Source of the DNA: Bacteroidota bacterium
GTDB taxonomy: Bacteria; Bacteroidota; Bacteroidia; Bacteroidales; B18-G4
Length of the DNA stretch: 32,250 bases
Direction: 5' to 3'
Assembly: GCA_018831055.1 (NCBI GenBank)
Contig: JAHJRE010000219.1
Location: forward strand, 1-32,250
In this document: positions 17,442-30,533 of the stretch, in pieces
Numbering within the stretch: position 1 is the stretch's first letter
Layout: the number at the start of each line of letters is the position of its first letter
Translations under genes and position numbers: made by a program
Notes under the pieces: model-generated
Databases searched by the model: none
What the model was told of the DNA's origin: nothing
Seen by the model: only the letters and a program-made list of their open reading frames with translations

Positions 17442-20400
17442 ATGAAGAAAATCTACATTTCTTTTCTTATGCTTTTCTGGGCTTTAGCAATGACGGCTCA
17501 GAACGGGCTTCTTTTCAATCCGCATATTGATGTGGACTGGAACTATGACAAATCCATACAGGTTCCTGCTTCTCCGATTATATCGCAGGTCCTTTTTGTC
17601 GGAGGTTACCATGAAGTGGTTGCCCTGGATGATAACGGCAATCCTGTTACAATTATGTCAAAAGAGGACAACGACTTTATCGGAGTTACCCCTGCCGGAA
17701 ACGGTGATTATTTTATTTCAGTAAACCATGAGTCACAGGTACTAGATGAAATCGGTGGTGACGGCGGTGGTATGACAGCCTTCAAGGTTACCCGTGATCC
17801 GAACACCGATACGCTGATCGTTACCGAGCAGACTCTGAACGATGGCAGAAACGGTAAGTTTTTCCTGGTAGATTTTAAACATACTGTTGGAGAAACCAGG
17901 AATAACTGCGGTGGTATTATCGGACCTAACGGTGATATCTGGACAGCAGAGGAATATCCTCCATTCTCCAATCAGGAGATTGCAGGATACATTTCAGACC
18001 TGAACAACTTTAAAATCGGAACCGGTTCTGTTTATGAAGTTAACGGTATGGTTCCTGCTTTTGAAGGCGAAGTGATCAAACGTTACCAGAACATGGGCTA
18101 CATGGTAAAGATTGACCCTGTAAACGCTAAGGCAGAGATGAAACAATACAACTGGGGCCGTATGTCGTTTGAAGGCGGTGTGATGATGCCTGATGAGCAA
18201 ACCTTCTACTTTTTTGAGGATGGGACTCCCGGTATGCTTACCAAATATGTAGGTAATACTCCTGGTGATTACATCAATGGAAAACTGTATATATATAAAC
18301 ATGACCTTAATGATCCGGTTAACGGAAACTGGCTTGAAATCGACAATACCAATCTGGATCTGATGCTTAATATGGCTGATTGGGCATGGACCAATCATGC
18401 AACCATGTTCAACAGGCTTGAGTGGGGTATTGAGATCAACGGATTAGTATATATTGCTGAGACCGGACGTGATGATGTTGGTAATAAATGGGCAGATGAA
18501 TACGCTGATGGTGGTGTAATTGCTCCTTATCACTACGATCGTGCAACAGCCCAGGGAACCGTTGCCCATGCTACCGACTATACCGACCTCTATGGCCGTG
18601 TTTTGGTTTATGACCCCGTAACCGACAGTGTTTGGGTTTACCTCGAAGGTGGTCCTGAATGGCCAAATGAAGTTTCCCAACCGGTTGCCGATTACCCTGC
18701 AGTTCATATGTCAAATGTGGATGGCTTGGGAAAAATTAACATCAATGGTGTTGATTACCTTATTATGAACGAAGACCTTAATGGCAAAACCTATAACCGT
18801 CAACCGGATGGTGTCGTTAGTAATCTTTGCGAAATGTTTCTGGTTGACGTTTCAAATCCAGCACCTGTATATTCAGATCTGATCAGGATTGGCGTTGGTC
18901 CTTTTGGAGCTGAGCTGACCGGAGGAACAGGAACGCCTGACAGCAAAACCATTTTCGTCAATGTACAGCATCCCAAAACCAATCCTAATGGCAATATCTT
19001 CCCATATGAAAGCGATAAAGCTGTAACTGTTGCCCTTACAGGTTTTGACAAACTAACCAATATCCGTGATGCTGAGTTTCCCATCGACTGGGTTGCAGAT
19101 CAGGACTTCCAGGCTCCTACCCATCCTGATATTCAGTATCAGGTTGTTTTTGTCGGAGGACATCACAAGGTTCAGATACTTGACAGGACAGGACAGCCAG
19201 GTGGAAGCATTGTTTCCAAGGAAGACAATGACTTCATCGGATTCACGGCTGCAACCAGCGATGAAGGTTACGGCTGGATCTCTATCAATCACGAATCCAA
19301 TGCCTATGATCCCTTCGGCGGAAACGGCGGTGGTATGACTTCCTTCATGATCGACCGCGAACCGGTTACCGACTCTATTGTGGTGGTTGAAACTACCCTT
19401 GCAGACGGCCGCAGCGGCAAATTCTTCTGTGTTGATTTCATCAATACTGTTGGTGAAACCCGTAATAACTGCGGTGGTATTATAGGACCCAATGGGGATA
19501 TCTGGACAGCGGAAGAGTATCCTCCCGCCGGTAACAATGAGATCGTTGGTTACATTCCCGATACTACGGATTGGATTATTGGCCAGGGAGTAGGAGCCTA
19601 TATGGATCTTCCTGATGCTCCTATGTTTAACGGAACCACTCTTGCCCGTTACCAGAACATGGGGTGGATGGTGAAAATAGATCCTGAAAATGCGGTTGCT
19701 CTTTACAAACAGTATAACTGGGGCCGCATGTCCTTCGAAGGCGGTGTTCTTATGCCCGATAATAAAACTGTTTTCAATTTTGAAGATGGAACCCCCGGTT
19801 TGTTAACAAAATTCGTAGGAAATGCTCCCGGTGATTTCATTAACGGTAAACTCTTCGTTTACAAACATGATCTGAATGACCCGGTAAACGGAAACTGGAT
19901 AGAAGTGGACAATACCGATATGGACAAGATGCTCAACTTCGCAAACTACACCATTCCTATGGGAGTTACCATGTTCAACAGGCTTGAGTGGGGTGTTGAG
20001 ATTGGTGGAAAAGTTTACATCGCAGAAACAGGCCTTGACAATCTGGGCTCCAAGTGGTCGGATGAATATGCTTTGGGTGGCATTATTCCCCAATATCATT
20101 ATGACCGCGCTGCCGCACAGGGAACACAACCTTATGTAAGTGGTTATTCTGATTATTATGGTCGCGTAATCGTTTATGATCCGGCAACCGACCAGGTAAG
20201 TGTTTTCCTCGAAGGCGGACCGGAATACGCCAATGAAACATCCCAGGATATTGCCGATTATCCCGCAAAACACCTCTCCAATATGGACGGCATGGGCAAG
20301 ATCAGCGTTAACAATCGCGATTATATGCTGCTTTGTGAAGACCTTAACGGAAATACCTATAACCGTGTTCCCAACGGTGTTCCCAGCAGACAGTGCGAAA

Positions 20401-20855
20401 TGTACATGCTCGATATGTCTATTACAACTCCGGTTATTGATGACCTGGTCCGTATCATGGTTGGTCCGTTCGGAGCTGAGATCACCGGCGCTGTTGGTAC
20501 TCCCGATGGCAAAACCATCCTCGTTAACCTGCAGCATCCGGGAAATAATCCGCAGGGTGGTGTGTTCCCATACTCCGGTGATCATGGCGTAACCGTTGCT
20601 CTTACCGGATGGGATAAAGGTAACGAAGGCATTATCGATAACAATAACCAGGAAATGGGCTTCAGCGTATACCCGAACCCCGCTTTCCGCCAGCTACACC
20701 TTAACGGTACCTACGATGTTGCTATCTATGACGCTGCCGGTAACCTGGTGTTTATCCGTGAAAACACTAACGTTGTTAATATCTCTAACCTGAATTCAGG
20801 GATCTATTTCATTCGCAACCAGCACGGCGAAACGCAGAAACTCATCATCGAATAA
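17442..20855 (+). CDS. Tandem-duplicated PhoX/DUF839 protein with T9SS tail
   Basis: 1137 aa with a signal peptide (MKKIYISFLMLFWALAMTAQ). Two homologous halves (about 45-540 and 565-1050) each resemble the PhoX/DUF839 family. The motif 'GETRNNCGGIIGPNGDIWT' has Cys156 in copy one and Cys677 in copy two, a period of 521 residues. Both copies also have 'SKEDNDFIG', 'ISxNHES', 'YNWGRMSFEGGV', 'DLNDPVNGNW', 'FNRLEWG', 'IAETG' and 'EDLNG'. In characterised PhoX the Cys of the NC-G-G region ligates iron, alongside calcium ions; retention in both copies suggests both may be active. PhoX hydrolyses phosphate monoesters. The last 75 residues are a T9SS type A domain ('VYPNPAFRQLHL', 'IYDAAGNLVFIREN'), so the protein is exported across or attached to the outer membrane. 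A single-gene transcript is indicated by the terminator just downstream. A lactonase-like or other role for DUF839 members cannot be excluded. Confidence 0.88.
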   Translation: MKKIYISFLMLFWALAMTAQNGLLFNPHIDVDWNYDKSIQVPASPIISQVLFVGGYHEVVALDDNGNPVTIMSKEDNDFIGVTPAGNGDYFISVNHESQVLDEIGGDGGGMTAFKVTRDPNTDTLIVTEQTLNDGRNGKFFLVDFKHTVGETRNNCGGIIGPNGDIWTAEEYPPFSNQEIAGYISDLNNFKIGTGSVYEVNGMVPAFEGEVIKRYQNMGYMVKIDPVNAKAEMKQYNWGRMSFEGGVMMPDEQTFYFFEDGTPGMLTKYVGNTPGDYINGKLYIYKHDLNDPVNGNWLEIDNTNLDLMLNMADWAWTNHATMFNRLEWGIEINGLVYIAETGRDDVGNKWADEYADGGVIAPYHYDRATAQGTVAHATDYTDLYGRVLVYDPVTDSVWVYLEGGPEWPNEVSQPVADYPAVHMSNVDGLGKININGVDYLIMNEDLNGKTYNRQPDGVVSNLCEMFLVDVSNPAPVYSDLIRIGVGPFGAELTGGTGTPDSKTIFVNVQHPKTNPNGNIFPYESDKAVTVALTGFDKLTNIRDAEFPIDWVADQDFQAPTHPDIQYQVVFVGGHHKVQILDRTGQPGGSIVSKEDNDFIGFTAATSDEGYGWISINHESNAYDPFGGNGGGMTSFMIDREPVTDSIVVVETTLADGRSGKFFCVDFINTVGETRNNCGGIIGPNGDIWTAEEYPPAGNNEIVGYIPDTTDWIIGQGVGAYMDLPDAPMFNGTTLARYQNMGWMVKIDPENAVALYKQYNWGRMSFEGGVLMPDNKTVFNFEDGTPGLLTKFVGNAPGDFINGKLFVYKHDLNDPVNGNWIEVDNTDMDKMLNFANYTIPMGVTMFNRLEWGVEIGGKVYIAETGLDNLGSKWSDEYALGGIIPQYHYDRAAAQGTQPYVSGYSDYYGRVIVYDPATDQVSVFLEGGPEYANETSQDIADYPAKHLSNMDGMGKISVNNRDYMLLCEDLNGNTYNRVPNGVPSRQCEMYMLDMSITTPVIDDLVRIMVGPFGAEITGAVGTPDGKTILVNLQHPGNNPQGGVFPYSGDHGVTVALTGWDKGNEGIIDNNNQEMGFSVYPNPAFRQLHLNGTYDVAIYDAAGNLVFIRENTNVVNISNLNSGIYFIRNQHGETQKLIIE

Positions 20856-20875: not shown

Positions 20876-20912
20876 GGAAAAAACCGGAATACTCCGGTTT
20901 TTTCCCTTTTTA
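20876..20912 (+). terminator. Strong intrinsic terminator after the PhoX-like gene
   Basis: A 13-bp perfect stem (ggaaaaaaccgga / tccggttttttcc, 20876-20888 and 20893-20905) with loop atac is followed by cttttta. It begins 21 bases after the PhoX-like stop. It separates that gene from the respiratory operon starting at 20987. Confidence 0.9.
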
Positions 20913-20986: not shown

Positions 20987-21379
20987 ATGAAGAAGATTTT
21001 CTTGACCCTGATCTTAATGATAACCGTTCTTTATCTTAGGTCACAGAACGTAAATAACCTATTAATCCCCGATGAAGCAGACCAATTGGTCAATCCTTAT
21101 ACAAACGACACAAAAGCCCCCTTACGTGGAGCCAGGGTTTATAAAAAAGTATGCTGGACCTGCCATGGCGACAACGGATCAGGTACAGGGCCTCAGGCCG
21201 CTGAAATAGAAACCAAACCCGCCAACTTCAAAGATCCTTTGGTGGCCGGCCGGTCCGATGGTGCATTGTTCTGGTGGATATCCAACGGCGGCAGCGATAT
21301 GCAGGCTTTCAAGGATGCTCTTACCGAAGACGAGATTTGGGACCTTGTGATGTATATCCGGAAAGTTCAGAACGATTAA
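20987..21379 (+). CDS. Periplasmic monoheme c-type cytochrome
   Basis: 130 aa with a signal peptide (MKKIFLTLILMITVLYLRSQ). The rest is a class-I-like cytochrome c domain: heme motif CWTCH at 56-60 after 'GARVYKKV', then 'GDNGSGTGPQAAEI' and 'KPANFKDP'. A likely distal Met ligand lies in 'GGSDMQAFKDAL', followed by the C-terminal helix 'EIWDLVMYIRK'. The fold matches small soluble electron carriers. It is the first gene of a run of nine closely spaced plus-strand genes ending in alternative complex III, and the next gene starts 11 bases after its stop. It is a natural candidate to shuttle electrons from that complex, by context. Export by Sec and heme attachment in the periplasm are expected from the signal and CxxCH. 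Confidence 0.9.
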   Translation: MKKIFLTLILMITVLYLRSQNVNNLLIPDEADQLVNPYTNDTKAPLRGARVYKKVCWTCHGDNGSGTGPQAAEIETKPANFKDPLVAGRSDGALFWWISNGGSDMQAFKDALTEDEIWDLVMYIRKVQND

Positions 21380-21390
21380 TACCAAATATT

Positions 21391-22302
21391 ATGAAAGTAT
21401 TTCCCCTGCTTGTATCCTGGATACTGATGCTTGGCGCAGGCAGTATTTTATATGGGCAAACGACTCCTTTCGTCCAGAAAACCTTCGAGGGTACTTCCCT
21501 TATCACTTCACAAACTGTTGAACAGCCTCCTTCCAATGGTTTTGAATTTAACCTTCAGCACCGTTTTGGCAGGGTTGACCTTAACGATGAACCTCTCCAT
21601 AAGTTTTTCGGTCTCGACCTGGTTAGTAATATCCGTTTTGGATTCATTTTCCCGGTATTTGAGTGGTGGAGCCTTGGCGCAGGACGCACCAAATACGGAA
21701 AAAACTACGATATCGATACTAAGTTCACTGTTTTCAGGCAAACCAAAGACTGGAAAACCCCGGTTTCATTATCCCTTTACCTTAACACGGCCATTATGAC
21801 CGACGATTTTCCCATTATCCAGGATAACAGTTATTTTGACGACGGAACAACTCCTTTTGAATACAAGTTCCGTCACAGGGTCAGCTATAATGCCCAGGTC
21901 ATCGTGGCTTCAAAGGTCAGTCGTTGGTTCTCCGTCCAGCTTTCTCCGACTTTTGTACACCGTAATCTGGTGGAACCGGAAGAAGAGAATGAAACCTACG
22001 CGCTGCCGCTGGGTGCCCGGTTCAAGATCAGCTTCATGAGTTCCATTATAGTAGAGTATTCGCCTGTTATGCAGGAACCCGGTGAAATCAAAGTCAACCC
22101 GCTGGCAGGACCTGCTATATGCCCCTTTGCCCTTGGTTTCGAAGTCCGGCCGGTAGGACATGTCTTCCAGATCATTCTCTCCAACTCCGACCGCATCCTG
22201 GGACAAAACCTATACACCATGGAACCTGTCAGTCCCTGGGACGGATACTTCTTTCTCGGATTTAACTTACACAGGAATTTATATTATAAAAAACGGAAAT
22301 AG
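21391..22302 (+). CDS. DUF5777-like outer-membrane beta-barrel protein
   Basis: 303 aa from ATG 21391. An upstream in-frame extension to 21274 overlaps the cytochrome gene and is rejected because the signal peptide begins at 21391 (MKVFPLLVSWILMLGAGSILYGQ). The mature protein alternates hydrophobic and polar residues with many aromatic strand ends, as in outer-membrane barrels ('GFEFNLQHRFGRVD', 'RFGFIFPVFEWWSLGAGRTK', 'TPVSLSLYLNTAIM', 'RVSYNAQVIVASKV'). It ends near 'GYFFLGFNLHRNLYY'. It resembles the DUF5777 family of Bacteroidota. Members I know of often sit beside cytochrome genes, and their substrate is not established. Here it sits between a soluble cytochrome and a heme-bearing Cys-rich protein, so a channel or a sheath for a redox protein is possible, by inference only. 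The stop is 2 bases before the next start. Confidence 0.78.
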   Translation: MKVFPLLVSWILMLGAGSILYGQTTPFVQKTFEGTSLITSQTVEQPPSNGFEFNLQHRFGRVDLNDEPLHKFFGLDLVSNIRFGFIFPVFEWWSLGAGRTKYGKNYDIDTKFTVFRQTKDWKTPVSLSLYLNTAIMTDDFPIIQDNSYFDDGTTPFEYKFRHRVSYNAQVIVASKVSRWFSVQLSPTFVHRNLVEPEEENETYALPLGARFKISFMSSIIVEYSPVMQEPGEIKVNPLAGPAICPFALGFEVRPVGHVFQIILSNSDRILGQNLYTMEPVSPWDGYFFLGFNLHRNLYYKKRK

Positions 22303-22304
22303 TG

Positions 22305-23051
22305 ATGAAACCAATATCTTCCCGGTTTTATTATGCCATGATTCTGATAATTGCAGGATGGGCCCTTTCTCGCTGTTCTGATGATAAAGGCCCGCTGATC
22401 GTAACACCACCTCCCGCACCTCCACCTTGCTTCTGCGATACTACTCCATACCTTGACCTGAATTGTCCCTGCGATAAAGATACCGACACTCTGCCATCAC
22501 ATCTCTGTACCTGCGACACTTCCGATTGTATTGAATTTGATTGCTATTGCGACCGCGATACTCTTTGCTGCTGTGATACTTCCACCTACCTCGACCCCAA
22601 CTGCCCCTGTGATCACGATACAGAACCTCATCCCTTGTGCCCCTGTGATACTTCTGATTACCTCGATCCCAATTGCAGCTGCGATACCGATACTATTCCG
22701 CATCCAAGCTCTTGTCCATGCGATATAAGCGAATGGATGGATCCAAACTGCCCATGCGATCCCGATACCATACCGCTGGTCAGCTATAGTAATGATATTC
22801 AGCCATTATGGGACCACTATTGTCTCGATTGCCATTATGAAGGCGCGGATGTTATTTACCTGGATGCTGCAAACTCGTATACTGACCTAAAGGCCATCGG
22901 GGCCATTTACCCTGGATTTCCTTATTCCAGCACAATATACACTATTACGCTTGGTCCGGAAAGCGATATGCCCCCCGGTCTGATCAGCCTTACAGAAGAA
23001 GAATCCGCTCTGGTGTTCTGGTGGATCAAACAAGGTGCATTAAATAATTGA
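22305..23051 (+). CDS. Cys/Asp-rich five-repeat protein with C-terminal cytochrome c-like domain
   Basis: 248 aa from ATG 22305; a GTG at 22302 overlapping the previous stop is a weaker start. The N-terminus is a hydrophobic signal ending in 'GWALSRCSDD', where Cys24 could be lipidated, although Arg just before Cys is atypical for a lipobox. After a Pro-rich linker (PPPAPPP), residues 42-155 hold five imperfect repeats of 20-26 residues with consensus C-x-C-D-x-S-x-Y-L-D-P-N-C-x-C-D-x-D-T, 22 Cys in all. Residues about 160-248 resemble planctomycete-type cytochrome c domains: heme motif CLDCH at 173-177, 'SDMPPGL' with the likely Met ligand, and 'LVFWWIKQGALNN'. I do not recognise a described family for the repeat part. 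It could be disulfide-stabilised, metal-binding or a rigid stalk carrying the heme. The repeat spacing does not match ferredoxin motifs. Confidence 0.85.
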   Translation: MKPISSRFYYAMILIIAGWALSRCSDDKGPLIVTPPPAPPPCFCDTTPYLDLNCPCDKDTDTLPSHLCTCDTSDCIEFDCYCDRDTLCCCDTSTYLDPNCPCDHDTEPHPLCPCDTSDYLDPNCSCDTDTIPHPSSCPCDISEWMDPNCPCDPDTIPLVSYSNDIQPLWDHYCLDCHYEGADVIYLDAANSYTDLKAIGAIYPGFPYSSTIYTITLGPESDMPPGLISLTEEESALVFWWIKQGALNN

Positions 23052-23067
23052 CAATAAATAATCTTCT

Positions 23068-24222
23068 ATGATATTCCTTCAAGGAAAAGTTCAGATACTG
23101 TTACGCATCTTGTCCATGGCCGTATTCCTGGAGTTTAGCACCGGAGAAACGGCCATGGCCTCATTTATGACATCGGATTCCTTAGGATTTGTTTTAACCT
23201 CATCCGACAGCATTCAGGAAGGGAAACGCCTTTTCTTTATGAACATCAATATCGGCGATACACTGCGTTCCTGTGCTTCCTGCCACTATTCAGAACCCCA
23301 GGATACATTTCACTGGAATCCATCAGCTTATGACATCTCTATGAAATTTCGTGATAAATCTGTTGCCGACCTGGAGGAAGCCCTGTTTTTTCCGTTGTCG
23401 GATAAAGCTTTTGAAGCGCATTCGGATCCCGGACTGGAACCGGCCCAACTTGTTATGCTCAAGGTATACATGGATGATCTCGCAGAAAAAAAACATCCTG
23501 ATTATCCGGTCAACTTTATAAAGATGATAATTCTTTATGCCATCCTGGCTGTATTTCTTTTTCTGGCAACCGATTCTTATGTGTTCAATATTTTCCGGAA
23601 AAAAATATTAAAACGCTCGTTAATGCTGATTTTTAGCATAATTATGCTGGCTATGCTTTATGAGGAAGCTATTGCTCTGGGCCTGCAAAGAGGTTACGAA
23701 CCCGATCAACCCCTGAAATTTTCCCATGAAGTGCATTACGAACAGAATGGTATCGATTGCCTGTATTGCCATATGCCGGCCAGGGCAGGAAAGTCAGCGG
23801 GGTTCCCGGCTACGGGAATATGCATGAATTGTCACGCAGTTATCCTGGAAGGCTCCCGTTCCGGCTCCTTTGAAATATCACAATTATCGGGTTATCATAC
23901 CAACCGGGTCCCAATTCCATGGATCCGGGTGTCAAACCTCCCCGATCATGTATATTTTCATCATGCCCTGCATTATGTGAGCGGAGGAATAGAATGCAGG
24001 GAGTGCCATGGTTCTCTTCAGGAATCTCACAGGGCCAGACAGGAAACGGAATTGTCGATGGGGTGGTGCCTCGATTGCCATGCGACAAGGAAATCCGGTT
24101 CTTTCGAAGGTGAATATTACCGCGACCAATACATGGAACTGAGAAAGAACTTGCAATCCACCGGAGATTCTGCGCTGGTAAAAGACCTCGGTGGATGGGA
24201 TTGCGTGCAGTGTCACTTTTAA
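23068..24222 (+). CDS. actA: Alternative complex III subunit ActA, hexaheme variant
   Basis: 384 aa. The N-terminal signal is 'QILLRILSMAVFLEFS'. Residues about 38-140 hold an extra cytochrome segment with CASCH at 69-73. Two transmembrane helices follow (about 150-172 and 182-203). Residues 210-384 are the classic ActA pentaheme domain: 'PDQPLKFSHEVHYEQNGIDC', with CLYCH (231), CMNCH (252), CRECH (310), CLDCH (334) and CVQCH (379). ActA is the periplasmic multiheme subunit that takes electrons from the ActB iron-sulfur chain towards a cytochrome c or oxidase. Textbook ActA has five hemes; this one has six CxxCH motifs because of the N-terminal addition. It starts 16 bases after the Cys-rich gene and is followed by actB. 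The heme ligands look intact. Confidence 0.92.
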   Translation: MIFLQGKVQILLRILSMAVFLEFSTGETAMASFMTSDSLGFVLTSSDSIQEGKRLFFMNINIGDTLRSCASCHYSEPQDTFHWNPSAYDISMKFRDKSVADLEEALFFPLSDKAFEAHSDPGLEPAQLVMLKVYMDDLAEKKHPDYPVNFIKMIILYAILAVFLFLATDSYVFNIFRKKILKRSLMLIFSIIMLAMLYEEAIALGLQRGYEPDQPLKFSHEVHYEQNGIDCLYCHMPARAGKSAGFPATGICMNCHAVILEGSRSGSFEISQLSGYHTNRVPIPWIRVSNLPDHVYFHHALHYVSGGIECRECHGSLQESHRARQETELSMGWCLDCHATRKSGSFEGEYYRDQYMELRKNLQSTGDSALVKDLGGWDCVQCHF

Positions 24223-24238
24223 GATATGGGGAAGCAAG

Positions 24239-27142
24239 ATGGTAAACGAAGATTATAACAAGGAATACCGCTTAGAGACAGGACACGAAAGCCCTTCAGC
24301 TTCCGGGGAGATTTTATCCATGGGAAGGCGTGACTTCATGAAAATGCTGGGCTATTGCATAGGAACCATGACCCTGGTTGCCTCCTGCGAACAGCCTGTG
24401 CGTAAAGCCATTCCCTACCTTGTGCAACCGGAAGAGATAACGCCGGGTGTATCCAATTACTATGCAACATTTCGTTATGAAGGAGGGGAGTTTTCAGCGA
24501 TACTGGTTAAAGTCCGCGATGGCCGTCCCATTAAAATTGAGGCTAATCCTGAAATGAGCGGGCTATGGGGAAGCACTTCCGCCAGAACCCAGGCCTCCAT
24601 ACTGGGATTGTACGATCCCGACCGCCTCGCTAAACCATTGATTAACGGTTTGGTATGCGACTGGGAACCCCTCGACAATCAGGTAAGAGATAAACTAGCT
24701 GAAATCAGCGCTTCCGGAAAAACAATTGTGATACTCACCCCTTCCCTGATCAGCCCTTCACGAACGCGGTTGATGAAGGAGTTCGCCGGTATTTATAATA
24801 ATGTCCAGGTAATTCCATATGATACCGTTTCCTATTCAGCCATACTGGATGCTCACGACCGGCTGTTTGGTAACAGGATCATTCCCTCTCTGCGTTTCCA
24901 TGAAGCAGATATGGTCGTGGGCGTGAACTGCGACTTCCTGGGAAGCTGGTTAAATCCGGCCGGTTTTGCCCGTGAATATATGGACAGGAAAAACTCCGGT
25001 GATCCATTGCTGCACCATCAGTTTGAATCTAACTTCACGCTTACCGGTGCACAGGCAAGCTGTCGTATTCCGGTTAATCCTTCAGAAGAAATCGAAATCC
25101 TTACGGAAATATACAATTTTGTGGCCAGGGAAACCGGTAATACACCCCTGAATCAAAATCCTGGAAATAATACTGCTGCCGCTGAAACTGCCGCTGAATT
25201 ATGCCTCAGGAAAGGCAAATCATTGATAGTCTGCTCCACGAATGACATTAATCACCAGTTGCTGGTTTGCGGTATCAATGCCATGCTCGGCAACTACGGG
25301 ACCGTGCTTGACCTTGAGCGGCCCATTCTTATTAAACAAGGAGATGATAATGCCATCGCTTCTTTTTCAGACCTCATGCAAGAAGGGGAGGTGGGGGCTC
25401 TCATTCTTTTCGGGGTCAATCCCTTATTGAACAATCCTCTCCGGGATAAGTGGAAGAATGGATTTAAAAAAACCGGACTTATATTACAGATTGCAACTTT
25501 TCCCGATGAATGCACCGGGTTCGCAAATTTTGTCTGTCCCGCGCATCATTACCTGGAATCCTGGGGTGACGCCATGCCGGTAAAAGGATTGTATGCTCTT
25601 TCACAACCTCTTATACAACCACTGTTGGACACCCGGCAGCCTGAAGATATCCTCATTTCCTGGATGGGCGGTAAACAATCCTTCCATGAAATATTAAAAG
25701 ATAACTGGGAAACAGTTATACTTCCTTCTGCCTTCTCCACAGGAGCAGATGAAGAATCATGGTATAAAATCCTGCAAACCGGTTTCCTGGAAACCGGTGA
25801 AACAGAAGTTGTCTCCAAGCCTTTTAATCCCGGTACTATTCAATCTCTTTATCAGGATGTTTCTCCTATACTAAAAGAAGGGATTGAGTACCAGTTGTAT
25901 GAGTCTGTGAACCTGGGGGATGGCACTTTACTTAACAATGTATGGCTCAGGGAATTGCCTGATCCTGTCTCCAAAATATCCTGGGATAATTATGCTGCGG
26001 TTTCCCCTGTCCTTGCCGAAGAAATGGGTTGGAAAAACGGGGATATGATCAGGATAAATAACGACCTCGAAATACCGGTATGGGTTCAACCCGGCCAGGC
26101 TTCCCGTACCATTTCCGTTGCGCTGGGTTTTGCAAGGCCGAAAGCCGGAAGAATTGCCTCCTTAGCGGGTTTTGATGTTTCCGGTCTTATGTCGTTTTCC
26201 AATTCTTATCGCATTCTTTCCGGATACTTTGATAAGCTGGAAAAAACAGGAAAACAATATGAACTTGCCTGCACCCAGGCTCATCATTCCATGGAAGGAC
26301 GCCGGATCATCCTGGAATATCCATTTTCAGAAGAATATGAACCGGAGCAGCCGGTTTCACTTTACGCTCCGTACGAACATCCCGGTCATCACTGGGGCAT
26401 GGTGATAGACCTCAACCGCTGCACGGGATGCAATGCCTGTGCGGTAGCCTGTCAGGCGGAGAACAATATTCCCATTGTAGGAAGGGAGGAAGTGCTGCGT
26501 GGCCATGAGATGAGTTGGCTGCGGATAGACCGTTATTACAGGGGGCATGATGAAAACCCTGCGATGCTTTTTCAGCCTGTCATGTGCCAGCACTGCGATA
26601 ACGCCCCCTGCGAAAATGTTTGCCCTGTGGCTGCAACCAGCCATAGCCAGGAAGGACTTAACCAGATGATCTATAACCGCTGCATCGGAACAAGGTACTG
26701 CAGTAATAATTGCCCTTATAAGGTACGGCGCTTCAATTGGTACGATTACACTGGTGCCGATGCGATAGGAGGGAACCTTTATGATCCGCATGGGATGACC
26801 GGTGACCTTCCCAGGATGGTGATTAATCCTGATGTTACCGTAAGGGCAAAAGGGGTTATTGAGAAATGCTCGTTTTGTGTGCAACGTATCCAGGAAGGTA
26901 AACATCGTGCACGTATAGAGAATCGTCCTTTAATGGATGGGGAGATCCAGCCGGCCTGCGTACAGGCTTGTCCTTCCCGCGCCATAGTATTTGGTGATCT
27001 GAATGATCAGCAAAGCGAAATTAGCCGTCTTTTAAAAGATCAGAGGAAATACCATCTGCTCGGGGAATTACAGACTCTGCCTTCTGTTGCTTATCTCGCA
27101 CGCATCAAGCCAAACCCGGATGAACAAATGAATCACTCATGA
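24239..27142 (+). CDS. actB: Alternative complex III subunit ActB (molybdopterin-oxidoreductase-like plus iron-sulfur part)
   Basis: 967 aa from ATG 24239. A GTG reading from 24191 overlaps actA and is rejected. A Tat-type signal (residues 29-45, 'GRRDFMKMLGYCIG', then 'LVASCEQP') resembles the variant Tat leaders of this family. Residues about 60-690 resemble a molybdopterin oxidoreductase (B1). In characterised ACIII this domain has lost the molybdenum cofactor, and no N-terminal cluster Cys motif is visible here. From about 715 the B2 part carries ferredoxin-like clusters: CTGCNACAVAC (from 728), CQHCDNAPCENVCP, CIGTRYCSNNCP, CSFCVQR and CVQACP. Known ActB uses three [4Fe-4S] and one [3Fe-4S] cluster to pass quinol electrons to ActA. 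The actC start overlaps its stop by 4 bases (ATGA). Confidence 0.95.
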   Translation: MVNEDYNKEYRLETGHESPSASGEILSMGRRDFMKMLGYCIGTMTLVASCEQPVRKAIPYLVQPEEITPGVSNYYATFRYEGGEFSAILVKVRDGRPIKIEANPEMSGLWGSTSARTQASILGLYDPDRLAKPLINGLVCDWEPLDNQVRDKLAEISASGKTIVILTPSLISPSRTRLMKEFAGIYNNVQVIPYDTVSYSAILDAHDRLFGNRIIPSLRFHEADMVVGVNCDFLGSWLNPAGFAREYMDRKNSGDPLLHHQFESNFTLTGAQASCRIPVNPSEEIEILTEIYNFVARETGNTPLNQNPGNNTAAAETAAELCLRKGKSLIVCSTNDINHQLLVCGINAMLGNYGTVLDLERPILIKQGDDNAIASFSDLMQEGEVGALILFGVNPLLNNPLRDKWKNGFKKTGLILQIATFPDECTGFANFVCPAHHYLESWGDAMPVKGLYALSQPLIQPLLDTRQPEDILISWMGGKQSFHEILKDNWETVILPSAFSTGADEESWYKILQTGFLETGETEVVSKPFNPGTIQSLYQDVSPILKEGIEYQLYESVNLGDGTLLNNVWLRELPDPVSKISWDNYAAVSPVLAEEMGWKNGDMIRINNDLEIPVWVQPGQASRTISVALGFARPKAGRIASLAGFDVSGLMSFSNSYRILSGYFDKLEKTGKQYELACTQAHHSMEGRRIILEYPFSEEYEPEQPVSLYAPYEHPGHHWGMVIDLNRCTGCNACAVACQAENNIPIVGREEVLRGHEMSWLRIDRYYRGHDENPAMLFQPVMCQHCDNAPCENVCPVAATSHSQEGLNQMIYNRCIGTRYCSNNCPYKVRRFNWYDYTGADAIGGNLYDPHGMTGDLPRMVINPDVTVRAKGVIEKCSFCVQRIQEGKHRARIENRPLMDGEIQPACVQACPSRAIVFGDLNDQQSEISRLLKDQRKYHLLGELQTLPSVAYLARIKPNPDEQMNHS

Positions 27143-28479
27143 GCGAATCCCTGATCACCGGCAATAAATCGTATGCCGATGTCACTGCTGACATCCTGCG
27201 TCCGCTGCTGCATAAGCCCGGCAGGCTTTGGTATCTGGGAATGATCCTGTCTCTGGGGGGCCTCGCTTTCGGATTGATAGCAACCTATAATACTTTGTTT
27301 TATGGCATTGGCGATTGGGGGCTCGACCGCACCATTGGCTGGGGATGGGCGATCACCAATTTCGTCTGGTGGATAGGGATAGGGCATGCCGGGACATTTA
27401 TTTCTGCAATCCTGCTCCTGTTCGAACAACGCTGGAGAAACAGCATTAACCGGGCGGCAGAAGCCATGACCATCATCGCGATACTCTGTGCCGCGTTTTT
27501 TCCGGTGATCCACATGGGAAGAGTCTTTCTGGGCTTCTTTATCTTTCCCTATTTCAATACCCGGAACCTTTGGGTCAACTTTAATTCGCCCCTGCTTTGG
27601 GACGTGTTCGCCATCAGTACCTATTTCATTGTTTCCCTGCTTTTCTGGTACACAGGACTGATCCCCGACCTGGCCCTATTGGCGGAAAAGGTTAAAAGGA
27701 AGACAAGCAGGTTGATCTATCGGAAACTCAGCATAAACTGGACCGGATCATCACAGAATTGGCATAACCATGGCCTTCTTACCTGGATCATGGCGGGAAT
27801 AGCCACTCCACTGGTCATTTCTGTGCATTCCATTGTCAGTATGGACTTTGCGACTTCCATCGTACCCGGATGGCATTCCACCATTTTTCCACCCTATTTT
27901 GTTGCCGGAGCCATCTTTTCAGGATTTGCCATGGTACAGACTCTACTGATCATAACCAGGAAAATGCTGCATCTTGAAGATTATATCACCCGAAGGCATT
28001 TTGAGAACATGAACAAGATTATCCTGGTTACCGGACTGATAGTGGCTGCGGCGTACTTTTCGGAGATTATTCTGGCATTCTACAGTGGTGATGAATTTGA
28101 GATCTATGCCATCCTGAACCGGATGACGGGCCCTTATGCCCCTTACTTCTGGGTAATGTTGTGCTGTAATGTATTGATCCCGCAATTGCTTTGGGTCAAA
28201 AAACTCAGGAGAAGCCTCACTTTTGCCTTTTTTGCCAGCATCCTCATCAATGTTGGAATGTGGCTGGAAAGGTATGTTATCGTTGTTGCTTCTCTCCACC
28301 GCGATCACCTTCCGTCTGCCTGGTCGGTGTTTCATCCGACACTCACAGATATCGGACTGCTGGTCGGCTCATTCGGGTTCTTTTTTGCGGTTTTCCTGCT
28401 TTTTGTCAGGATATTTCCGATTATTTCAATCTATGAAGTCAAACATTTAATCCACGAAAATAAAAACCATGCAATATGA
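27139..28479 (+). CDS. actC: Alternative complex III subunit ActC (NrfD-like membrane quinol site)
   Basis: 446 aa, an integral membrane protein with about ten helices of the NrfD/PsrC family. Examples are 'LWYLGMILSLGGLAFGLIA', 'NFVWWIGIGHAGTFISAILLL', 'AMTIIAILCAAFFPVIHMGR' and 'LLTWIMAGIATPLVISVHS'. The 'WWIGIGHAGTFISA' stretch and 'HMGR' are characteristic of ActC, where this face forms the quinol oxidation pocket next to the ActB clusters. Length is near the family norm. The start overlaps the actB stop in ATGA, and its own stop overlaps the actD start by 4 bases, showing tight translational coupling. The N-terminus is in the cytoplasm by analogy and there is no cleavable signal. Confidence 0.94.
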   Translation: MSESLITGNKSYADVTADILRPLLHKPGRLWYLGMILSLGGLAFGLIATYNTLFYGIGDWGLDRTIGWGWAITNFVWWIGIGHAGTFISAILLLFEQRWRNSINRAAEAMTIIAILCAAFFPVIHMGRVFLGFFIFPYFNTRNLWVNFNSPLLWDVFAISTYFIVSLLFWYTGLIPDLALLAEKVKRKTSRLIYRKLSINWTGSSQNWHNHGLLTWIMAGIATPLVISVHSIVSMDFATSIVPGWHSTIFPPYFVAGAIFSGFAMVQTLLIITRKMLHLEDYITRRHFENMNKIILVTGLIVAAAYFSEIILAFYSGDEFEIYAILNRMTGPYAPYFWVMLCCNVLIPQLLWVKKLRRSLTFAFFASILINVGMWLERYVIVVASLHRDHLPSAWSVFHPTLTDIGLLVGSFGFFFAVFLLFVRIFPIISIYEVKHLIHENKNHAI

Positions 28480-28985
28480 ACATAACCGGTGTGTATGAAA
28501 ACGAACATTACCTGATGAAGGGAATTGAACTTACCCGTCAAAGCAAGGCGGAAGTCAAGGATGTGCTTACACCTTTTCCCATATCCTCCGAAAGAACCCG
28601 GGAAACCGGTTTTTACGATTCCATCCCTGCTGTCGGACTGATCAGCGGATTGCTTGGCATTGTGACAGGTATGCTTTTCCAGATCTGGGTTTCAGTGTTC
28701 GCCTATCCGATGCAATATGGCGGTAAACCCTTTCTCTCAATCTTATCCTATATCCCTGTGATGTTTGAACTGGCCATACTGTTTTCCGCCATTGCCATGG
28801 CCACCCTTTTCTTTGTTAAACTGAAGCAGAGGAAACGCTTGAGCCGCGCACAAGCCGAACAAATCACCGTCGACAGGTTTGTCCTGAAAATCGAATGGAC
28901 AAGAGGCAATGAAGGGGAGGTCGTAAACTTTGTGGAAAGGCTTAAAAAAGAAACCAGTGTGAAAGATGTTGTAATCCAGGTTTGA
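28476..28985 (+). CDS. actD: Alternative complex III subunit ActD (DUF3341)
   Basis: 169 aa. A cytoplasmic N-terminal domain (1-50, 'MNITGVYENEHYLMKGIELT') precedes two membrane helices ('AVGLISGLLGIVTGMLFQIW' and 'VMFELAILFSAIAMATLFF'), then a basic loop (KLKQRKRLSRAQ) and a short mixed C-terminal part ('DRFVLKIEW...VKDVVIQV'). This is the DUF3341 layout typical of ActD, a small subunit at the interface of ActC and the other membrane subunits with no cofactor of its own. Its position between actC and actF, overlapping actC by 4 bases and 2 bases before the next ATG, supports the call. Confidence 0.9.
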   Translation: MNITGVYENEHYLMKGIELTRQSKAEVKDVLTPFPISSERTRETGFYDSIPAVGLISGLLGIVTGMLFQIWVSVFAYPMQYGGKPFLSILSYIPVMFELAILFSAIAMATLFFVKLKQRKRLSRAQAEQITVDRFVLKIEWTRGNEGEVVNFVERLKKETSVKDVVIQV

Positions 28986-28987
28986 TC

Positions 28988-29959
28988 ATGAATATTTTCA
29001 GGATGAGCGGAAATATTTCAAGGATGCTGGTCATCGTAGCCTGGGCATTTACATTGCTTGCTTTACTAACTGTATGGTTGACGGTTGGCCGGATGAATAA
29101 CATTCTTTCAATATTGTTATTAGATGCATTCCTTTTTGCAGGGATGGGGCTTTTTGCAGGATTGTTCTTCAGTATGCATACGTTGGGCAATGCTCACTGG
29201 ATCAATGAAATCCGCTTTGAGCTGAAAGGAATGATGGTATTGCTTATTGCAATGCTGCCGGCATTTGCATTTATCCTTTTCTTCCTGCCGGATCTGTATC
29301 CATGGTTCAATGATACGGAGCTAAGTGTCTTTCAAAAGGCTTATTTCCAATCCTGGACTTTTGTACTCAGGAATGTTATGTACTTTACGGTGTGGGTGAT
29401 CCTGCTGGGAGTTTTTAGACGATACGATCCTTTTTCATGTTATAATGAAGGAATTCGAAAGTATTCTGCAGTTTTTCTTGTTTTTACAGGAATAATGATC
29501 ACACCGTTTTCCTGGGACTGGCTTATGTCGCTTGATATTCACTGGCATAGCACCCTCTACGGGTGGTATGTACTGTCGGGGATACTTTCCGGCGGAACCG
29601 CATTCCTTATCCTGGTTTTCTGGTTTTGCAGGAAGAAGGATAAAGTATGGAAGAACCCTCAGCCGGTGAGGCTCTACCTCGCCAGGTACCTCTTCGCATT
29701 CAGTATTGTTTGGATGTACCTGTGGTATGTTCAGTTTTTCCTGGTCTGGTACGCCAACCTGCCCGGCGAAACCATTTATTATATCGAAAAGATAAGGGAT
29801 TTTCCGGTTTTGTTTTACCTGAACCCTGTGCTGGGTTTTCTGATACCTTTTATTCTTCTGATATCTGTAAAAGGTAAAAAAAATGAGTTGGTTTTGCTGA
29901 TATCGGCATTTTCGTGCCTGCTGGGACAATGGATAGACCGCTTCCTGTTGATCTGGTGA
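28988..29959 (+). CDS. actF: Alternative complex III subunit ActF-like, compact membrane protein
   Basis: 323 aa from ATG 28988; a TTG at 28982 overlaps actD and is not needed. About nine transmembrane helices fill nearly the whole length ('LLALLTVWL', 'LLLDAFLFAGMGLFAGLFF', 'MMVLLIAMLPAFAFILFFL', 'YLWYVQFFLVWY', 'NPVLGFLIPFILLIS'). The sequence 'PFSWDWLMSLDIHWHSTLYG' is the ActF signature also seen in ActC paralogues. It is shorter than the ActF proteins I know (roughly 400 residues or more), so loops or a helix appear to be missing. It lies before actE instead of after it. Predicted role: the second large membrane subunit, proposed to take part in proton movement or assembly. Confidence 0.85.
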   Translation: MNIFRMSGNISRMLVIVAWAFTLLALLTVWLTVGRMNNILSILLLDAFLFAGMGLFAGLFFSMHTLGNAHWINEIRFELKGMMVLLIAMLPAFAFILFFLPDLYPWFNDTELSVFQKAYFQSWTFVLRNVMYFTVWVILLGVFRRYDPFSCYNEGIRKYSAVFLVFTGIMITPFSWDWLMSLDIHWHSTLYGWYVLSGILSGGTAFLILVFWFCRKKDKVWKNPQPVRLYLARYLFAFSIVWMYLWYVQFFLVWYANLPGETIYYIEKIRDFPVLFYLNPVLGFLIPFILLISVKGKKNELVLLISAFSCLLGQWIDRFLLIW

Positions 29960-29978: not shown

Positions 29979-30533
29979 ATGAAAAAAATTATCAGATCAA
30001 TTTTGTTATTAGCAGTTTTACTGGCTTCCTGTGCCAAAGACAGGAATCATCCGGGATATACCTATTATCCTGATATGGCCTATTCCCGTGCTTATGAATC
30101 CTGGTCGGAAAACCCGCTTTCAGAAGATGGAAGAGCCATGCTTAACCCCGTTAAAGGAACCGTTCCGAGGGAAAGGATCCCCTATTTCCTGGATAAGAAT
30201 AAAAATGACAGGACCAGCGCCGGATCAATATTCACGATGGATTCCCCGATGAAAAATGATACTATACCGGGTAAAGCAATGTTCGAACTCATATGCATGC
30301 AGTGTCACGGTATGTTTGGCGACGGCAAAGGCAAACTTTTTACTTCCGGCTGGTATTCATACCCTCCGGCTTCACTTTTATCTGAGAAAATGAAAACGGT
30401 TCCCGATGGGGAAATCTATCATGTGATCACTGTCGGGTACAACCTCATGGGAGCCCATGGATCTTTACTTACCCCACCGGAAAGATGGAGTGTTGTTTCT
30501 TATGTGAGAAAACTTCAGGGAACCGGAAAATGA
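29979..30533 (+). CDS. actE: Alternative complex III subunit ActE, monoheme cytochrome c lipoprotein
   Basis: 184 aa. The signal peptide ends in a good lipobox, 'LLLAVLLASCAKD', so Cys18 or its near equivalent is probably lipidated. 'PGYTYYPDMAYSRAYESW' is the typical ActE N-terminal segment, which contacts other subunits. One heme motif, CMQCH (residues about 105-109), is followed by 'GMFGDGKGK', 'PPASLLSEKMKTVPDGEIYHV' and 'GYNLMGAHGSLLTPPERWSV', with a probable axial Met in 'NLMGAHG'. ActE is an electron exit subunit facing the periplasm. In known operons actE precedes actF; here it is last. It is 19 bases after actF, and its stop lies 25 bases from the convergent gene's stop. Confidence 0.92.
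   Translation: MKKIIRSILLLAVLLASCAKDRNHPGYTYYPDMAYSRAYESWSENPLSEDGRAMLNPVKGTVPRERIPYFLDKNKNDRTSAGSIFTMDSPMKNDTIPGKAMFELICMQCHGMFGDGKGKLFTSGWYSYPPASLLSEKMKTVPDGEIYHVITVGYNLMGAHGSLLTPPERWSVVSYVRKLQGTGK

Follow-up and report, generated by a model that had tools for sequence, protein, structure and literature searches.

A cysteine-repeat tether in a lipid-anchored monoheme cytochrome encoded between DUF5777 and alternative complex III genes of Bacteroidales

The window analyzed here, a stretch of 32,250 nucleotides from a Bacteroidales genome (GCA_018831055.1, contig JAHJRE010000219.1), carries an operon with the gene order cytochrome c, DUF5777, repeat gene, ActA, ActB, ActC, ActD, membrane subunit, and cytochrome c (Table 1). 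The initial annotation had placed the repeat gene inside a respiratory operon; it lies directly between the genes of DUF5777 and ActA in an operon for alternative complex III (ACIII). Its frame opens with an ATG two bases past the stop codon of the DUF5777 gene (22302) and closes, with its own stop codon at 23051, 16 bases before actA. The order PhoX-like gene, cytochrome c, DUF5777, repeat gene, ActA, and ActB is common to the window's genome (G000) and two others, G045 (locus L153) and G249 (locus L154), all three from uncultured Bacteroidales.

Table 1. Features of the cytochrome–ACIII region in the window.
Feature	Position	Strand	Basis
PhoX-like protein, secreted, carrying a Por secretion tail	17442..20855	+	PF05787, PF18962; all-against-all match
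Soluble-type monoheme cytochrome c	20987..21379	+	Pfam PF13442/PF00034; orthologs at the same place in L153 and L154
DUF5777, predicted outer-membrane beta-barrel	21391..22302	+	PF19089, E 1.5e-63
CxCD-repeat lipo-cytochrome, 248 aa (P0001)	22305..23051	+	Open frame and translation; full-length orthologs P0002 and P0003
Lipoprotein signal with lipobox (residues 1-24), then S-D-D-K	22305..22376	+	Sequence; lipobox Cys also in both orthologs
Strongly acidic array of five CxCD...CxCD units with 22 Cys (residues 42-155)	22428..22769	+	Unmatched in Pfam, NCBIfam, and PDB sequences
Monoheme cytochrome c domain with CLDCH (173-177) and Met222 as the likely distal residue	22770..23048	+	Motif invariance, weak profile matches
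ActA, six CxxCH	23068..24222	+	Pfam multiheme cytochrome matches; search for ActA across the order
ActB, iron-sulfur and molybdopterin-like subunit	24239..27142	+	
ActC, NrfD-like membrane subunit	27139..28479	+	PF03916
ActD	28476..28985	+	PF11821
ActF-like membrane subunit	28982..29959	+	Position; no Pfam match; resembles membrane part of the fused L153 gene
ActE-like monoheme cytochrome c	29979..30533	+	PF13442/PF00034; match to fused genes of L153 and L154

The repeat protein begins with a hydrophobic signal that ends in a lipobox Cys (Cys24; Cys22 and Cys25 in the orthologs), and 22 Cys lie between this residue and the heme motif (C173-H177). The initial annotation correctly described the gene, the 22 Cys, and the heme motif but overlooked the lipobox Cys, as well as a degenerate second unit, the repeat-less relatives, and the PhoX-like gene conserved upstream. 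The cytochrome domain that it had recognized behind the repeats is borne out by the invariance of both CxxCH and Met222 across the three repeat proteins. Although P0001 by itself has no Pfam match, ortholog P0002 matches Cytochrome_CBB3 at 0.0004, which is under the curated cut-off, and a profile search gave a match to the c-type cytochrome FoxE at 0.0012. Together with the motif, these matches identify the predicted domain as a c-type cytochrome. A Cytochrom_C_asm gene is present in G000 and G045 but was not found in G249, whose genome is 87% complete.

Coordinates, reading frame, and Cys count all agree with the five CxCD units annotated at residues 42-155, which start at residues 42, 68, 88, 112, and 137. 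The consensus that had been proposed for them (C-x-C-D-x-S-x-Y-L-D-P-N-C-x-C-D-x-D-T) fits fully only in units 3 and 4; unit 1 has DLN in place of DPN, unit 5 has Trp in place of Tyr, and in the degenerate unit 2, Tyr is replaced by Cys75 and DPN by EFD. Cys75 and Cys89 are the two residues in excess of four Cys per unit. Each ortholog has six units, and the spacing of the CxC pairs is variable, but the four Cys are kept in all 17 units of the three proteins (68 core Cys), and an aromatic residue and Asp recur between the CxC pairs. Synonymous divergence between units is high, with the same codon at only about half of the shared residues, which indicates that the pattern is old and has been kept at the protein level. 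Because, in addition, two distant orthologs retain all four Cys in six of six units, chance is excluded as its origin.

The orthologs in G045 and G249 are both full length and were recovered from 60 relatives and, by extension, from 393 genomes of the order Bacteroidales, respectively; they belong to one family, which is not that of the window. A profile search of genome contigs with the alignment returned the same two orthologs only, and a contig scan with a single protein as query returned no match. A profile of the array alone retrieved just the three known proteins and a chance match in an unrelated protein, so that, within the genomes sampled, the repeat does not occur elsewhere without the heme domain. 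The repeat is absent from about 1,100 further sampled Bacteroidota genomes, among them the remaining 8 genomes of the window's family, three of the five genomes in the family of G045 and G249, and samples of the class and the phylum. It is thus known from three sequences in draft assemblies, at least two of which are titled as metagenome-assembled, against a partial sample of class and phylum.

The repeat has no significant match among Pfam, NCBIfam, and PDB sequences, in agreement with the initial annotation, which had recognized no described family. The same searches linked it neither to a known disulfide-rich linker family nor to any profile or solved structure of Cys-rich repeat or metallothionein families, and a literature search for Cys-repeat cytochromes gave nothing relevant. 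The gene might also have been an isolated oddity or an annotation artefact, but this is ruled out by the two orthologs, which share the gene order and likewise adjoin ActA and DUF5777. Misbinning of the contig from family f38 was rejected on the basis of tetranucleotide composition, which correlates at r = 0.95 between the window and larger contigs of the same genome but only at 0.46-0.78 between the window and sequences of f38. Although the record of L153 (CAMDBI010000022.1) carries the title Bacteroides fragilis, its contig belongs to G045, and the title looks wrong; the stretches of G045 that were read have a GC content of ~36%, and the genome carries ACIII and an aa3 oxidase gene.

Homologs of the heme domain are far more common than the repeat. 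They occur in 20 of the 60 relatives and in 91 of the 393 genomes of the order; in all but the three orthologs, it is the heme part that is matched. A DUF5777 gene is nearby in 53 of the 57 loci of such relatives that were examined (some of which overlap), usually directly adjacent in the repeat-less loci, and a cytochrome c gene is often present too. The lipo-cytochrome and DUF5777, often joined by a cytochrome c, make up a module that is conserved in Bacteroidales; in L034 (1229-6927), the one repeat-less operon that was fully read, the module continues into a multiheme cytochrome, cytochrome b, an NrfC-like protein, and an NrfD-like protein, not into ACIII. In short relatives such as L018 and L038, which share the lipobox, a homologous monoheme domain, and DUF5777 nearby, the lipo-cytochrome gene precedes that of DUF5777 in the examples read, and the linker lacks Cys repeats. 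Their lipobox is separated from the heme by a median of 32 residues, as opposed to 149, 167, and 156 residues in the repeat proteins.

P0001 thus has the homologous heme domain, the lipobox Cys, and the adjacent DUF5777 gene of a typical DUF5777 partner, but its tether of 149 residues with 22 Cys lies outside the range of the short linkers (about 28-44 residues). Because the relatives combine a short linker with a nearby DUF5777 gene, the repeat proteins are best explained as DUF5777-partner lipo-cytochromes with an inserted Cys array, located between the lipid anchor and the heme, in operons that join the module to ACIII. A possible source of the insert is a motif in L002, a repeat-less, three-domain lipo-cytochrome of the window's genome, in which PCDPDTI stands just before a heme domain in the same letters that end unit 5; a comparable motif with a single Cys occupies this place in several other relatives, and the array may have grown from such a sequence. 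Growth from an existing motif, as well as the variation in unit number and CxC spacing, would also suit a passive low-complexity linker that was extended by slippage and has no structural role. Such a linker is nevertheless very improbable, given that reactive Cys need not be kept in it, whereas the distant orthologs retain every core Cys and the units have diverged strongly at synonymous sites.

The DUF5777 proteins of the three repeat loci form one clade (support 99/93), suggesting that the arrangement of DUF5777, repeat gene, and ACIII probably arose once. Since the window's family otherwise lacks ActA in the genomes searched for it, the present distribution could have resulted from either transfer or loss. 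The ActA tree neither shows nor rejects a single clade for the three operons (p-AU 0.371); all three have very long branches in the ActA tree of the order, which suggests fast or unusual evolution. The repeat protein is not a general subunit of ACIII, as 58 other ActA loci of the order lack it upstream of ActA (five with less than 1 kb readable). In both G045 (L153, 12050-15518) and G249 (L154, 12307-15322), ActF seems to be fused to ActE, and in the same region of G045 ActC likewise seems to be fused to ActD; ActD was not found in G249.

Tethered cytochromes are a recognized way to wire respiratory complexes, and the length of the tether sets which partners can be reached. A tethered monoheme cytochrome is therefore a known kind of protein, but a Cys-repeat tether is new. 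We consider it somewhat probable that the repeat protein is a lipid-anchored, DUF5777-partner monoheme cytochrome whose tether was replaced by a stiff, cross-linked stalk that extends the reach of the heme. Five or six compact four-Cys units would take the place of the short connection between lipid and heme, and cross-links within or between units, most likely disulfides, would turn the array into a stiff, acidic spacer that holds the heme farther from the membrane. The heme would accept electrons from ACIII or the neighboring cytochrome c and deliver them to a partner farther away, either close to the outer membrane or at the cell surface. The presence of an aa3-type oxidase gene with SCO1, in addition to ACIII, in all three genomes makes a chain from menaquinol via ACIII and cytochrome c to the oxidase likely.

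The initial annotation had already suggested a disulfide-stiffened stalk or, alternatively, binding of metal ions or calcium; the role of a spacer gains from the finding that the array is an insert relative to the short-linker relatives, whereas disulfides and metal or calcium binding are putative. The even Cys totals of the repeat proteins (22, 24, and 24) fit disulfides but are also compatible with metal; a search for VKOR, which provides one route to disulfides, was negative in the three genomes but also in the control, Bacteroides ihuae, so that its absence carries little weight. Instead of being stiff, the long acidic array could be flexible or metal-loaded; its AlphaFold model, built on an alignment only three sequences deep, has a pLDDT of 37.7 and is uninformative. 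Three lineages carry a repeated four-Cys module exactly in the tether, whereas the relatives examined keep the tether short, which offers a natural comparison for the tuning of heme reach.

Cytochrome cy, which has bc1 and cbb3 as partner complexes, is anchored in the inner membrane and is not known to carry a Cys-repeat array. It is alike in principle, with a membrane-tethered c-type heme that shuttles electrons between a complex III and an oxidase (PMC7876108). ActE is likewise a lipid-anchored monoheme cytochrome c encoded in the ACIII operon; in F. johnsoniae, aa3 does not require it, and another route for electrons has been proposed (PMC8552683). The repeat protein differs from ActE in its relationship to the DUF5777 partner and in the location of its gene before actA, and the window already has an ActE-like gene farther downstream.

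An unlikely alternative is that each CxC...CxC unit, with Asp nearby, is the site of a single Zn, Cu, or Fe ion and that the array serves as a metal store or buffer or supplies metal to the heme or copper oxidase enzymes. CxC pairs resemble metal-thiolate motifs in general, Asp and no fewer than four Cys are present in every unit, and a copper-handling gene of the SCO1 type adjoins the oxidase in all three genomes. However, SCO1 often accompanies aa3 oxidases and has no link to the repeat gene, and an exported lipoprotein faces surroundings in which Cys often oxidize. The repeat also lacks a match to known metal-binding families; with metallothionein-like CxC proteins it shares the dense CxC motifs, but it differs from them in being exported and acidic and in combining a heme domain with regular units that contain an aromatic residue and Asp. 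If the units do bind metal, the tether could itself be a new kind of conductor. The corresponding reading, in which each unit contains either a metal ion or a disulfide pair that can switch, so that the tether conducts or gates electrons between membrane and heme, is highly unlikely.

The DUF5777 protein, on which no papers were found, is tied to its lipo-cytochrome partner across the order. Its AlphaFold model (pLDDT 86) predicts a small barrel in the outer membrane with about 12 strands, and Foldseek matched it to OmpG, FapF, and KdgM. The consistent pairing of such a barrel with a lipo-cytochrome raises the question of whether the two form an outer-membrane conduit for extracellular electron transfer, with a surface-exposed heme that the stalk lifts through the surface layer. 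Surface export signals of Bacteroidetes lipoproteins consist of a polar residue and a stretch of acidic residues behind the lipobox Cys, as in SDDDD, SDDFE, or XK(D/E)2 (PMC5080379). The CSDDK of P0001 fits this pattern well and may indicate a surface location; the CENDK and CEKDQ of the orthologs resemble it only loosely. A canonical module, moreover, includes multiheme cytochromes and NrfD, but no multiheme surface cytochrome was seen in the window operon. MtrCAB-type conduits, which also combine a barrel with cytochromes at the outer membrane, have barrels much wider than about 12 strands and multiheme rather than monoheme cytochromes. The DUF5777 barrel, as modeled and matched to OmpG and KdgM, looks too narrow for a conduit of this kind, and the proposal is quite doubtful.

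The PhoX-like gene just upstream of the operon was found beside none of the other loci examined, and a literature search for a link between PhoX and ACIII gave no relevant paper. In the three genomes, it encodes proteins with repeated PhoX-like domains of 1137, 1363, and about 1640 residues (2173-6261 in L153 and 1601-6532 in L154). In the window, a terminator-like hairpin is located at about 20878-20903.
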